Part shown: one piece after another, positions 28,727 through 33,087 of the stretch
How the letters are laid out: each line of letters begins with the position of its first letter
Position numbering within the stretch: position 1 is the stretch's first letter
NCBI GenBank assembly: GCA_947258695.1
Contig: CAMYJG010000026.1
Coordinates: 1 to 40,515 of the forward strand
Direction of reading: 5' to 3'
Source: an uncultured Ectothiorhodospiraceae bacterium
Lineage (GTDB): Bacteria; Pseudomonadota; Gammaproteobacteria; UBA6429; Thiohalophilaceae
DNA length: 40,515 bases
Notes under the pieces: generated by a model
What the model was told of the DNA's origin: nothing
The model's input: only the letters and a program-made list of their open reading frames with translations
Database searches by the model: none
Made by a program: the position numbers and the translations under genes

Positions 28727-29188
28727 ATGGCAATCGCATTAACATTACAAAAGTACCTTGCTGATAATGGCATCGCTTACGATCTTCTGCCTCATCGTCA
28801 CTCTTCTTCAAGCATGAGCTCAGCACAAGCAGCGCATATTCCAGGAAAACATCTCGCTAAATCGGTCATTCTTGAAGATGAAGATGGTTATTTAATGGCA
28901 GTGATACCGGCTACAGAACATCTGAAATTTCGCAAAGTAAATCATGCACTTAAGCGTCATCTCGGGATGGCAATTGAATCGGAATTAGAACCGTTATTTT
29001 CTGATTGTGAGCTGGGCGCTATTCCTGCTGTTGGAGATGCCTACTCAATGGAATCTATCGTTGATAATAAGTTTGAAAACTGCTCAGATGTTTATATTGA
29101 AGCTGGCGATCATGAAGAACTTGTTCATATATCGGGTAATTCATTTCGTAAATTAGTGAAAGACTCACATCACGCCTCAATCTGCTAG
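28727..29188 (+). CDS. YbaK/ProX-type aminoacyl-tRNA deacylase domain protein
   Basis: A 153-residue YbaK/EbsC family protein (aminoacyl-tRNA synthetase-associated domain). The PHRHSSSSMSSAQAAHIPGKHLAKSVIL segment contains the conserved Lys of the deacylase site, followed by VIPATEHLKFRKVN and the GAIPAVGDAY loop that forms the pocket wall. Such proteins hydrolyse mischarged tRNA such as Ala-tRNA(Pro) or Cys-tRNA(Pro); this one is a divergent member, so the tRNA is not assigned. A perfect Shine-Dalgarno (AAAGGAGGTG) precedes the ATG, and a strong terminator follows. Confidence 0.88.
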   Translation: MAIALTLQKYLADNGIAYDLLPHRHSSSSMSSAQAAHIPGKHLAKSVILEDEDGYLMAVIPATEHLKFRKVNHALKRHLGMAIESELEPLFSDCELGAIPAVGDAYSMESIVDNKFENCSDVYIEAGDHEELVHISGNSFRKLVKDSHHASIC

Positions 29189-29205: not shown

Positions 29206-29237
29206 TAATCAGGAGAATTATTTCTCCTGATTTTTTT
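29206..29237 (+). terminator. Terminator after YbaK-like gene
   Basis: AATCAGGAGAA and TTCTCCTGATT form an 11-bp stem with a four-base loop, followed by a T-run. Confidence 0.92.
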
Positions 29238-29307: not shown

Positions 29308-29325
29308 TTGTGATTAATTTGTGAT
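29308..29325 (+). promoter_or_regulatory. Direct-repeat operator before response regulator
   Basis: Two identical TTGTGAT heptamers (29308-29314 and 29319-29325) are exactly 11 bases apart, the geometry of OmpR/PhoB-family binding sites. The site ends only 31 bases before the preferred start codon, so it probably overlaps the core promoter and would suit autoregulation. A longer array with the same core precedes the spondin gene. Confidence 0.5.
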
Positions 29326-29356
29326 AATTCAATGTTATGTTGACGGGATGTCTGAT

Positions 29357-30073
29357 ATGTCCAGAAAAAAAATATTAATCATCGAAGACCATATTGATTT
29401 GGCAAAGATTTTAACGCTGCATTTGTCTGATCTGGACTATGAGGTAAAACATGCAGATGATGGCCTCAAAGGTTTAAATCTCCTGGAAAATGAATCCTTC
29501 GACCTGGTGATACTAGACCTTATGTTGCCCGGTATGGATGGGCTTGAGATTTGTCGCCGGATACGTAATCAAAATAATTACACCCCGGTACTGATGTTAA
29601 CTTCAAAGTCGTCGGAAATCGATCGGGTTATAGGGCTGGAAATAGGGGCTGATGATTACGTAGCAAAACCGTTTAGTGTCAGGGAAGTGATGGCGAGAAT
29701 CAAAGCACTATTTCGCCGCGTAGAAGCCTTTTCAATTACTAATAATGCAAGAAAAGAACAAGATAATGTTGTCTATGGAAAACTGGAAGTTGATATTGAA
29801 AGCCATAAGGTTTCTGTAGCAGGTCGTTCAGTTGACCTAACCGCAAGGGAGTTTGAATTATTACATCACTTTGTTAAACGTCCTGGACGAGTTTATTCAC
29901 GAGCACAACTGCTTGACATGGTATGGGGCTATGGTCATGAAGGCTATGAGCATACAGTGAACTCCCACATAAATCGTTTACGGGCAAAAATTGAAAATGA
30001 TCCCACCAACCCGGAGTATATCCTGACAATCTGGGGAGTAGGGTATAAGTTTAATGACACAATGAGTTTATAA
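29357..30073 (+). CDS. OmpR/PhoB-family response regulator
   Basis: A DNA-binding response regulator of about 238 residues. The receiver domain has the acidic pair Glu10-Asp11, the phospho-acceptor Asp54 (VILDLMLPGMDG) and Lys104 (YVAKPF). The C-terminal winged helix (about 140-235) has LTAREFELLHHFVKRPGRVYSR and the recognition segment VNSHINRLRAKIE. Start choice: GTG 29321 falls inside the direct-repeat operator and is unlikely; ATG 29348 abuts its SD; ATG 29357 has GGGA at a proper eight-base distance. The cognate histidine kinase begins three bases after its stop. The stimulus is unknown. Confidence 0.93.
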   Translation: MSRKKILIIEDHIDLAKILTLHLSDLDYEVKHADDGLKGLNLLENESFDLVILDLMLPGMDGLEICRRIRNQNNYTPVLMLTSKSSEIDRVIGLEIGADDYVAKPFSVREVMARIKALFRRVEAFSITNNARKEQDNVVYGKLEVDIESHKVSVAGRSVDLTAREFELLHHFVKRPGRVYSRAQLLDMVWGYGHEGYEHTVNSHINRLRAKIENDPTNPEYILTIWGVGYKFNDTMSL

Positions 30074-30076
30074 TCT

Positions 30077-31549
30077 ATGTTTAGTCGTATTTCTACTCGC
30101 TTATTTATCACCCAGCTCTGCATACTGTTAACACTTTCCGCTATATTTATTGGCTTGTTTGTATATACCGCCCCGCTTTTTTTGCAGGAACTCAATCAGC
30201 GTCTCAATTTAGATTTGGCTGATAATATCGTCAAAGAAAAAAAGATGATTCTGAATAACAAGGTTAACCAAAAAGCATTAAAAGCTGTTTTGAATGGCAT
30301 GATGCTGGTTAACCCAAGCATTGAAATATACATTACCGATCCAGCAGGAAAAATTATGGCGTTTTCTGCACCTGAAGGCGCAGTAAAAAGAAAACAAATA
30401 TCAATAGAACCAATAAACGAATTTATTAGCAGCAAAACTCATCTACCGGTGTTGGGTGATGATCCACGTTCAACTGATGGATATAAAGCCTTTTCTGTTG
30501 CACCGATAAAAAATGGGAATAACTTAGAGGGTTATTTATATATTGTTTTAGGTGGAGAAAACTATGATTCAATTTTTAATTTTTTAGAATCGAGTTACTT
30601 GTTAAGAAGTTGGCTGGCTGCAATCGCTATTAGCCTGGTTATTGCATCGATACTTGCTTATTTCCTGTTTCGATACATCACCCGTCGAGTTTACATTTTA
30701 TCCGATGCGATAGAACAGTTTAAAAAAACAGATTTTACTACACCGGTTTCATTACCAGAGAGGTTTGATGGAATAACAGGGGATGAAATTGATCAACTGG
30801 GTTCTACTTTATTGCAAATGTCTGATCGCATTATACAGCAGGTAAAATTATTAAAGCACAATGATTCTTCACGGCGTGAGTTAATCGCCAATGTTTCGCA
30901 TGACCTACGGACGCCGTTAGCATCTTTACAAGGTTACCTGGAAACACTGTTGTTAAAAAAAGAGATTGTCTCGGATGATGAAGCGCAAGAGTATATAAAA
31001 ACAGCATTTGAAAATAGTCAGCGATTACAAAAACTAATTTCTGAATTATTTGAACTTGCCAGCCTGGAAAATAATGACGCAACGCTTCACTTTGAAGCTT
31101 TTTCAATGAGTGAGTTAGCGCAAGATGTCAGCCAAAAATTTAAGTTACATGCAAAAAATAAAGACATTACCATAGAAACTAAAATTCCTGAGAAACCCGT
31201 TTTTGTTTCTGCTGATATTGGTTTGATTCAACGGGTTTTAGAAAACCTGATTGATAACGCGATCAAGTACACACCGACAGGTGGCACTGTTGAAGTTATT
31301 CTTGGTACTGGTGAGTCATCGGTTGCCACCTTGATCCGTGATAGTGGCCAGGGTATTTCCGACGATGAAGCACAATTTATTTTTGACAGGTTTTACCGTG
31401 TAGAAAAACATCGGGACGAAGATGGTTCCGGACTTGGGTTGGCTATAGTTAAAAGAATTATGCAGCTTCATAACCGTTCAATCTCAGTGTCACCCGCTCC
31501 TGATAAAGGCACTGTTTTTTCATTTGATTTACCTTATGCGACGTTTTAA
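30077..31549 (+). CDS. Sensor histidine kinase
   Basis: A 490-residue inner-membrane kinase. Two membrane segments (about 9-32 and 178-198) flank a periplasmic sensor of roughly 145 residues that looks PAS-like (PSIEIYITDPAGKIMAFS). HAMP covers about 200-252, the dimerisation helix holds the phospho-acceptor His275 (ANVSHDLRTPL), and the catalytic domain shows N (LIDNAIKY), G1 (DSGQGIS), F and G2 (GSGLGLAIVK) boxes. All boxes are intact. It is co-transcribed with the regulator upstream. The signal is unknown; the extracytoplasmic sensor suggests an envelope or external cue. Confidence 0.94.
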   Translation: MFSRISTRLFITQLCILLTLSAIFIGLFVYTAPLFLQELNQRLNLDLADNIVKEKKMILNNKVNQKALKAVLNGMMLVNPSIEIYITDPAGKIMAFSAPEGAVKRKQISIEPINEFISSKTHLPVLGDDPRSTDGYKAFSVAPIKNGNNLEGYLYIVLGGENYDSIFNFLESSYLLRSWLAAIAISLVIASILAYFLFRYITRRVYILSDAIEQFKKTDFTTPVSLPERFDGITGDEIDQLGSTLLQMSDRIIQQVKLLKHNDSSRRELIANVSHDLRTPLASLQGYLETLLLKKEIVSDDEAQEYIKTAFENSQRLQKLISELFELASLENNDATLHFEAFSMSELAQDVSQKFKLHAKNKDITIETKIPEKPVFVSADIGLIQRVLENLIDNAIKYTPTGGTVEVILGTGESSVATLIRDSGQGISDDEAQFIFDRFYRVEKHRDEDGSGLGLAIVKRIMQLHNRSISVSPAPDKGTVFSFDLPYATF

Positions 31550-31575
31550 TTTGTGCAGAGTTCACAAATAATGGA

Positions 31576-31615
31576 TTGTGATAAATATGTGATAAATTCG
31601 TGACTTCACAGCGAC
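31576..31615 (+). promoter_or_regulatory. Four-unit direct-repeat operator before spondin gene
   Basis: The units TTGTGAT (31576), ATGTGAT (31587), TCGTGAC (31598) and a weaker CAGCGAC (31609) are spaced by exactly 11 bases, so the GTGA core recurs on one DNA face. The first unit is identical to the repeats in front of the response-regulator gene. The layout resembles a Pho box with GTGA in place of GTCA. It lies 60-100 bases before the start codon, suitable for activation. Confidence 0.55.
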
Positions 31616-31675
31616 AGTTATTGTTCATGCTGTCATTTCATAACTAAAGGTCAAAAAATACCAAGGAGATATGAA

Positions 31676-32252
31676 ATGAAAAACATAACTGGAACAATTG
31701 TTTTGCTTGCAATGGGAACCATGGGATCGTGTTCTGTCATGGCGAGTGATACGAATAAATATAGCGTTACAATTACAAATGCAACAGCGCATCATGTGAT
31801 TACTCCACCATTAATTGTGGTACACCATAAACGTTATAAATTATTTGAAGTTACTAAAGCAGCTAGTGAAGGTTTAGCAACACTCTGCACCGATTGTATA
31901 TGGTAACTCAGCAACTTATACCTTTAAGGCACCAAAAAGAGCACGGATTAGTATTGCCGGAATGTTAGCGACAACAAATGATGCTTTTGCTGGCGTATCC
32001 AGTGTGGCGTTACCACGTAAAAGTGTGACTTATATGGCGGCTACCTATGATGCCGGTTCAGAAGATAATAATGAGTTATGTATTGATATTCCGGGCCCAC
32101 CTTGTGGCGGAACTAATGCTAACATTGTAGGCGACGGCGAAGGTTTTGTAACTATTCATAACGGTGTGAGTGGGGTCGGTGATTTACAACCGTCTCACCT
32201 TGATTGGCGTGGTGCTACAGCTATTGTTACGATCAATCGTATTAGTGATTAA
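31676..32252 (+). pseudogene. Spondin-domain secreted protein, frameshifted
   Basis: Two adjoining frames together make one spondin-domain (Spond_N) protein. The first (31676-31906) has an AAGGAG ribosome binding site, a signal peptide (cleavage near VMASD), then NKYSVTITNATAHHVITPPLIVVHH and ASEGLATL, before shifting into CTDCIW-stop. The second frame, one base over, resumes at about 31878 with SAPIVYGNSATYTF, ISIAGMLATTNDAF and YDAGSEDNNEL, and ends ITINRISD at 32252. Family proteins I recall have about 20 more residues between GLATL and the resumed strand, so an out-of-frame deletion near 31878-31903 is likely. No slippery heptamer is seen. A sequencing or assembly error remains possible. 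Confidence 0.75.
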
Positions 32253-32273: not shown

Positions 32274-32314
32274 AACCAGGTCAGATCGCACTAACTTTCT
32301 GACCTGGTTTTATT
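32274..32314 (+). terminator. Terminator after spondin gene
   Basis: AACCAGGTCAG (32274-32284) and CTGACCTGGTT (32299-32309) form an 11-bp stem, then TTTATT. Confidence 0.75.
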
Positions 32315-32331: not shown

Positions 32332-33087
32332 ATGATGATGAAATATAGTCTTGTCTTATACCTGCTACTCTCGAATTCACTTTTTGCAGCAGATGCGATG
32401 AATTTGCAGTTTGAGAGTAGTAAGCAAAGAAATACCCTGATTGAATTGTATACCTCGGAAGGGTGTAGCAGTTGCCCGCCAGCTGAAGAATTTTTAAATA
32501 GCTTGAAAAATAAAAATGATCTGTGGGCTAAGTATGTACCGGTTGCTTTTCATGTTAATTACTGGGATTACATTGGCTGGAAAGATCCTTATGCCATGAA
32601 AAAATTTGGTCAGCGTCAGTCGCGATATGCGAAATTAAAACGTGCGTCTACTGTTTATACTCCTGCTTTTATGGTGAATGGGAATAGTTGGCGCAGGGGA
32701 ATATTTTCACGCTCGCTTCCTGAATCGCAGGCGGAAGTAGGGAAGTTAAAGGTGGCTATTAATGATAAAACGATAACAGCGAGCTTTAACCCAATACAAA
32801 AAAACCAATCATCGTTAAAATTAAATATTGCTGTTTTAGGAATGGGGTTAACCAGTCAAATTGAAAGAGGGGAGAATGAAGGAAGAACGGCCAGGCATGA
32901 ATTTGTCGTTGTTGGTTTTAATTCTTTCATTAATAACAATAATAAAACACATAAATGGAAATCAAAGCTACCAGCTTTGCACTATCCTGCGGCAGAAAAA
33001 TACGCTGTAGCCGTCTGGGTAAGTGAAATGAATAATCCGACCCCGATACAGGTGGTAGGTGGTTATATGCCTGGTTACACTAAGTAA
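32332..33087 (+). CDS. DUF1223 thioredoxin-like periplasmic protein
   Basis: A 251-residue protein with an N-terminal signal sequence (cleavage near LFAADA) and the DUF1223 hallmark TSEGCSSCPPAE, where Cys45-x2-Cys48 form a thioredoxin-like redox site. The following VAFHVNYWDYIGWKDPYA and RQSRYAKLKRASTVYTPAFMVNG segments, with a cis-Pro-like PAF, complete the fold. The second half is beta-rich. Function of the family is unproven; a periplasmic thiol-disulfide role is reasonable. AAGGAAAG precedes a run of three ATGs. The upstream terminator may separate it from the spondin gene. Confidence 0.88.
   Translation: MMMKYSLVLYLLLSNSLFAADAMNLQFESSKQRNTLIELYTSEGCSSCPPAEEFLNSLKNKNDLWAKYVPVAFHVNYWDYIGWKDPYAMKKFGQRQSRYAKLKRASTVYTPAFMVNGNSWRRGIFSRSLPESQAEVGKLKVAINDKTITASFNPIQKNQSSLKLNIAVLGMGLTSQIERGENEGRTARHEFVVVGFNSFINNNNKTHKWKSKLPALHYPAAEKYAVAVWVSEMNNPTPIQVVGGYMPGYTK

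Follow-up and report, generated by a model that had tools for sequence, protein, structure and literature searches.

Direct GTGA repeats with an 11-bp phase as the predicted operator of an OmpR/PhoB-family two-component system and its exported targets in Gammaproteobacteria

A 40,515 nucleotide contig of an uncultured Ectothiorhodospiraceae bacterium (CAMYJG010000026.1 of assembly GCA_947258695.1, positions 1 to 40,515 of the forward strand; hereafter the window) encodes an OmpR/PhoB-family response regulator and a membrane sensor histidine kinase, followed by a gene for an exported protein with a spondin domain. Direct GTGA repeats with an 11-bp phase precede both the regulator and the spondin gene. 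They very probably constitute the operator of the regulator encoded between them, through which it would activate its own expression as well as that of exported proteins. The principal features of the locus are as follows:

29308..29325, + strand: two-unit predicted operator before the response regulator gene (GTGA at 29310 and 29321)
29336..29341, + strand: predicted -10 element TATGTT, starting 15 nt past the G that opens the second GTGA
29348..30073, + strand: OmpR/PhoB-family response regulator of 241 amino acids (PF00072 and PF00486), alternative start at 29357
30077..31549, + strand: membrane sensor histidine kinase of 490 amino acids (HisKA and HATPase_c)
31576..31615, + strand: array before the spondin gene (GTGA at 31578, 31589 and 31600; degenerate GCGA at 31611)
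31626..31631, + strand: candidate -10 element CATGCT at the same 15-nt offset, a weak match assigned from the position rule
31676..32252, + strand: exported spondin-domain gene, interrupted (NF038123 matches; alignment to the G013 gene)

The site before the regulator consists of two copies of TTGTGAT located 11 bp apart (29308-29314 and 29319-29325). Before the spondin gene the units follow one another in 11-bp steps, namely TTGTGAT (31576), ATGTGAT (31587), TCGTGAC (31598) and a fourth, degenerate unit containing GCGA (31611-31614). The coordinates and the 11-bp phase of the repeats in the initial annotation are correct at both sites, while of the four spondin units it described, the first two are strong and the third (CGTGAC) and fourth (GCGA) are weaker than was implied. 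The genome from which the window derives (3,215,845 bases) was scanned with several patterns, each set against a reversed-pattern control. TTGTGAT-N4-WTGTGAT has two exact matches, both at these sites and nowhere else in the 3.2 Mb, and TGTGA-N7-GTGA-N7-GTGA has a single exact match genome-wide, which is the spondin array. The shorter GTGAT-N6-GTGAT is found 14 times, as compared to four for its control; eleven of these matches lie inside open reading frames (ORFs) and the three intergenic ones precede the regulator, the spondin gene and a MipA/OmpV gene. The other three-unit match with one mismatch in this genome (L020/L272; C12:58983) lies inside an ORF and was rejected.

Conservation was assessed in a family sample of 40 genomes, 22 of which contain a kinase match at E <= 1e-60 (sampling at the order level returns the same 40 genomes), and in a class sample of 369 genomes, 67 of which contain a regulator match at E <= 1e-70. 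The 89 loci tested (1.06 Mb) comprise 21 from the family, including that of the window, 60 others from the class and eight from named relatives, among which are Marinobacter, Nitrincola and Thiohalobacter. One of the 22 family kinase loci, that of G030, in which no regulator ORF was found, was excluded, while 60 of the 63 class matches outside the family were taken in, the lowest scoring (G311, G040 and G390) being left out. The named relatives are represented by the first eight (L081-L088) of 80 loci, the remaining 72 carrying more distant regulators. The upstream stretch of one locus (L230) is mostly N and was scored as a miss among the 89. Gene calling followed a simple longest-ORF rule, by which at least one spondin gene was lost (L234, seen as L304), and gene names at the sites were taken from profile matches or from reading of the sequence.

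The 160 bp before the regulator contain a GTGA-N7-GTGA pair in 21/21 family loci and in 26/68 loci outside the family, such that conservation in orthologous loci, named beforehand as the test on which the proposed operator could fail, holds. Pairs with spacers of 2-6 or 8-20 are present in none of the 21 family loci and in at most two of the 68 others, and reverse-direction pairs at spacer 7 in one and two, respectively, while dinucleotide shuffles gave means of 0.045 family and 0.255 outside loci with a pair. The motif is, furthermore, not equally frequent elsewhere, as the intergenic DNA of the 89 loci contains 144 GTGA pairs at spacer 7 versus 1-15 at any of the other spacers between 3 and 15, and 45 triples at spacer 7 versus four or fewer at the others. 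Coding GTGA pairs show no excess at spacer 7 (48, versus 25-54 at other spacers), and neither of the control words AGTG and GAGT peaks at this spacer in the same loci. That the repeats arose by chance in AT-rich intergenic DNA could be argued from the mismatch-tolerant patterns, whose frequency is equal or close to that of their controls, but the conservation and the specificity for both spacer and direction make chance scarcely credible. The evidence rests on the exact matches, their positions and their conservation, and mismatch-tolerant counts alone are not telling.

Exact four-unit arrays were found 19 times in 15 of the 369 class genomes, 13 of which are among the 67 regulator-positive genomes (Fisher: 6.4e-9 for four-unit arrays against regulator presence), while the reversed control gave one match, in G217. 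With up to one mismatch allowed, the 40 family genomes contain 24 four-unit matches in 17 genomes, 14 of which have the kinase, and the control gave none. The matches in the three kinase-negative genomes among the 17 (G005, G022 and G037) are Pho-box-like or a tandem repeat. Those in G037 and the four exact matches in G392 were excluded as pure 11-bp tandem repeats, and those before pstS-like or acyltransferase-like genes were not counted, being in our own reading Pho boxes seen from the other strand. In two family genomes (L059 and L068), reverse Pho-box-like arrays precede an acyltransferase gene which reads as OlsB-like. The association of the arrays with the regulator also bears on a different assignment, in which the units are CRP/FNR-type half-sites bound by a global regulator and not the local one. 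TGTGA is indeed a CRP half-site; however, the CRP site is inverted (TGTGA-N6-TCACA), and this arrangement occurs in 0/89 regulator-upstream regions (1/89 with one mismatch). The repeats here are direct and the four-unit arrays track regulator-positive genomes, making a CRP/FNR-type origin very improbable.

The architecture of the promoters is likewise regular. Forty-two arrays were attributed to the regulator on the basis of ORF positions, while the 47 regulator promoters considered below comprise all pairs in the 160-bp upstream stretch, and units with one mismatch were included in the unit counts per array. Arrays before the regulator contain two units in 39/42 cases and three in 3/42, while those before spondin genes contain four in 20/32, three in 7/32 and two in 5/32. 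In the regulator promoters, the second GTGA is followed by a TAnnnT element that starts 15 nt from its first base in 35/47 cases and 16 nt from it in a further six (41/47 in total), and column frequencies reveal no -35 consensus where one would be expected. A sigma-70 scan of the window returned 11 sites (11.1 expected), none of which is listed across either operator. A fixed -10 element without a -35 consensus is the layout of an OmpR/PhoB-family activator, and the missing -35 consensus makes these promoters look activator-dependent. Were the local regulator to bind the same sites as a repressor, the closeness of the repeats, which end a few bases short of the -10 element, would reflect blocking and not the recruitment of polymerase; given the lack of a -35 consensus or of a sigma-70 match across either operator, and a placement like that of Pho boxes, repression appears unlikely.

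In 13/47 regulator promoters an in-frame start codon is found 37-40 nt past the G at the start of the box. Combined with the position of the -10 element, this suggests that some members of the group have very short leaders or none. In the window (29336-29357), where the -10 rule predicts a transcription start near 29348, and in the orthologous loci L251-L255 and L260, the predicted start coincides with or adjoins the start codon (38-39 nt past the opening G of the box), and the regulator mRNA may be leaderless.

We infer binding, phosphorylation dependence and activation rather than repression in the following form. The kinase would phosphorylate the response regulator, which would bind head-to-tail on a single face of the helix, with one DNA-binding domain per GTGA unit, and, positioned just upstream of a -10 element without a good -35 element, would recruit RNA polymerase. 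Two units would drive the regulator-kinase operon, resulting in positive autoregulation, while three or four would drive an exported effector gene (spondin), perhaps with a steeper or stronger response. On sequence comparison, the proposal in the initial annotation of an operator for this regulator, serving autoregulation as well as a neighboring target, is well supported by conservation and spacer specificity.

The regulator, with its receiver and winged-helix Trans_reg_C domains, adjoins a HisKA/HATPase_c kinase, and its predicted site is a tandem direct repeat of about 11-bp phase, both as in OmpR/PhoB-family two-component systems. YycF and WalK are the best-scoring NCBIfam models for the regulator and kinase, respectively, but both scores fall below the cut-offs (YycF: 240.6 vs. 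340; WalK: 239.3 vs. 725). The WalR/VicR (YycF) box of Firmicutes, given as TGTWAH-N5-TGTWAH in the parts of the source consulted (PMC4168254), shares the direct repeats, the 11-bp phase and the TGTnA core with the units described here, in which the fourth base is, however, G and not A or T, such that they do not conform to TGTWAH. WalR targets are autolysins, whereas the predicted targets here are exported proteins. The Pho box has the same 11-bp phase and a similar placement before the -10 element, and PhoB belongs to the same protein family; its half-sites are, however, TGTCA where TGTGA is found here, and the regulator does not reach the PhoB equivalog cut-off (218.9 vs. 296.2). By sequence, the closest solved structures are those of the mycobacterial MtrA and RegX3 (2oqr, 2gwr), which belong to actinobacterial systems, and the MtrA model scores 236.3 against a cut-off of 300.

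The half-site also resembles the cre/blr-tag of CreB/BlrA, TTCACN6TTCAC in the portions of the sources consulted (PMC3660660, PMC4689548), which has the same 11-bp phase and whose reverse complement, GTGAA-N6-GTGAA, is nearly identical to the pairs described here. As such, the half-site is not wholly private to this regulator, contrary to what had been supposed. E. coli CreB shares 39% identity with the regulator, which falls short of the CreB equivalog cut-off (219.3 vs. 273). The CreB tag upstream of creD in E. coli K-12 reads TTCACCGTCACTTCAC on the coding strand. Its orientation is thus opposite to that of the present sites, for which the pair before the regulator is forward in 21/21 family loci and reverse in 1/21. 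These likenesses, together with an 11-bp phase common to Pho and WalR boxes, would allow another OmpR/PhoB-family regulator (PhoB, WalR-like or CreB-like) to bind the sites, the adjacent pair being a bystander. The sites are, however, located before this regulator's own gene in every family locus tested and follow the regulator across the class, while the CreB tag has the other orientation to the promoter. The Pho-type arrays of the family (L058, L059, L065, L068 and L077), in our own reading, run the opposite way, toward pstS- or acyltransferase-like genes, and GTCA yields 15 intergenic pairs and no triples at spacer 7 in the same 89 loci. A bystander role for the local pair is, on this evidence, quite improbable, and the regulator appears to be a new OmpR/PhoB member with an operator word of its own. 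No prior description of this operator or regulon appears among the papers listed in searches of open-access literature, from which most subscription papers are absent. In Pseudoalteromonas luteoviolacea, the L-amino acid oxidase has as its neighbor a cluster of two Spondin_N genes, a kinase and an OmpR-family regulator; in the portion of the source consulted (PMC6316408), the only relevant paper on spondin among those listed, this is a remark on gene neighborhood without operator, regulon or function.

In the kinase, the methionine at residue 76 (30302-30304 in the window) is retained in 99% of 81 aligned kinases and is followed by a GDDPR motif at residues 127-131. The same alignment of the sensor domain contains no cysteine conserved at 40% or above and one histidine column at 52%, and therefore no metal site is evident in this domain.

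The 137 arrays of at least two units in the 89 loci are directed toward the regulator in 42 cases, toward a spondin gene in 32 and toward another gene in 23. Spondin genes were called in 44/89 loci (57 ORFs), counts which are lower bounds because longest-ORF calling loses genes. Among the 40 family genomes, spondin genes are present in 18, all of which are among the 22 kinase-positive genomes, while none of the 18 kinase-negative genomes has one (Fisher: 6.8e-8, kinship ignored). The next ORF was read behind 15 exact four-unit arrays of the class sample, with G392 left out, and is a spondin gene in nine cases (L299, L301, L304, L306, L307 and L310-L313), a methionine-rich exported protein in L305, a bufferin-like operon in L309 and a redoxin in L314, with no clear assignment for L302, L303 and L308. 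The arrays of L299, L306 and L307 are on contigs other than that of the two-component system in their genomes, and two of six family spondin genes located away from the system likewise have a site (L294 and L295).

The initial annotation had envisaged one adjacent target, which proves too narrow. The intergenic GTGA pair on another contig of the same genome (C39:27952-27967, L010) precedes a gene for an outer membrane protein of the MipA/OmpV family, is followed by TAATAT at the same offset and is retained in six of seven close family orthologs, own genome included. Elsewhere, arrays precede DUF1223 genes in four relatives (L206, L207, L210 and L211), MsrAB in one locus, DUF7482 in two, and DUF2282 and DoxX in one, besides the methionine-rich and bufferin-like genes mentioned above. 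The DUF2282 (bufferin-like) and DoxX genes lie beside the system, with arrays at L081:3965 and L081:11919, and an array beside the system in L233/L309 precedes an operon with a protein read as DUF692-like. The main text of a survey of the bufferin landscape (PMC12452194) makes no mention of spondin, DUF1223, two-component or response regulator. Two different families (L230_7 and L076) contain a small exported protein with the motif RGTGPVI[FY]VTSQGL behind a four-unit array with one degenerate unit each; for the L230 copy, neither Pfam nor NCBIfam gave a match.

Several results weigh against an operator of the regulator with this regulon. The pair is absent directly before the regulator in 42/68 loci outside the family, and in some of the loci (L082, L086 and L088) the whole stretch examined is devoid of exact pairs. 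In several outside loci without the pair, by eye and without a formal count, an array instead precedes a spondin or methionine-rich gene that ends just upstream of the regulator, suggesting that the entire operon may be under its control. The loci are related, several being from one genus, and their rows are not independent. In the own genome, TTGTGAT-N4-WTGTGAT with two mismatches gives 82 matches versus 63 for the control and the three-unit pattern with one mismatch three versus three, while a scan of the window with three mismatches found 11 where 8.4 were expected. Of the 137 arrays, 29 fall solely within ORFs and a further 11 are not followed by any called gene. Spondin promoters obey the -10 rule less well, TAnnnT being located at offset 15 in 9/32. 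Four of the six family spondin genes away from the system (tandem pairs in G030 and G032) lack an exact pair, as do one of seven close and all four distant MipA orthologs. Finally, other candidate targets near the system frequently lack their own array, as for MsrAB (near the system in 12/89 loci, one behind an array), redoxin (13 and one) and DUF1223 (nine and four).

More broadly, the arrays could mark a widespread, unnamed regulon of the class, in which one OmpR/PhoB-type pair reads TGTGA repeats and induces exported protectors against methionine, thiol or copper damage in the periplasm, a proposal which we put forward tentatively. The protectors would include the spondin proteins, MipA/OmpV, DUF1223, MsrAB, methionine-rich proteins and bufferin-like operons, and output would be set by the number of units, two for the regulator itself and three or four for effectors. 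Periplasmic redox or metal stress as the signal is a guess, for which the sole basis is the company that MsrAB, methionine-rich, redoxin and bufferin-like genes keep with the arrays or the system. If true, bacterial spondin-domain proteins would have a stress function. An anonymous sensor-regulator pair, with close regulator homologs in 67/369 class genomes, here gains a predicted operator, a target list and a promoter rule, while bacterial spondin-domain and DUF1223 proteins gain a regulatory context. TGTGA, of which the CreB half-site is the mirror image, would also join TGTCA (PhoB) and TGTWA (WalR) among the direct-repeat operators with an 11-bp phase, a series of use in understanding how such regulators read DNA and choose direction.

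The spondin frame of the window is itself interrupted. Its first frame runs from 31676 to 31906 and the second part is read from about 31878 to 32252. Searched apart with NF038123 (cut-off: 40 bits), the first piece scores 31.6 bits and the second 75.6 bits; the cut-off is thus passed by the second piece, as it is by intact relatives. Alignment to the intact 216 amino acid gene of G013 shows frame shifts, with gaps of 27, 50 and 6 columns in the window row and of 9 and 8 in that of G013. The broken gene is either a pseudogene or an assembly error in a fragmented genome.

The predicted operators are flanked by further genes and hairpins:

28727-29188: aminoacyl-tRNA editing gene, upstream of the regulator
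29207..29232, + strand: terminator-like hairpin from the pattern scan (11-pair stem and T run), 3' of the aminoacyl-tRNA editing gene
32274..32309, + strand: terminator-like hairpin with a 12-bp stem between the spondin and DUF1223 genes (fold: -22.1 kcal/mol; z: -5.66)
32332..33087, + strand: DUF1223 protein with the motif CSSCPP (PF06764)

The strong hairpin at 32274-32309, which is not among the results of the terminator scan as this admits only loops of 3-8, suggests that DUF1223 may not be co-transcribed with the spondin gene; no GTGA pair is seen before DUF1223 in the window sequence. The terminator scan found four sites in the stretch (2.2 expected), and the hairpin at 29207..29232 is predicted to set the aminoacyl-tRNA editing gene apart from the regulator promoter.

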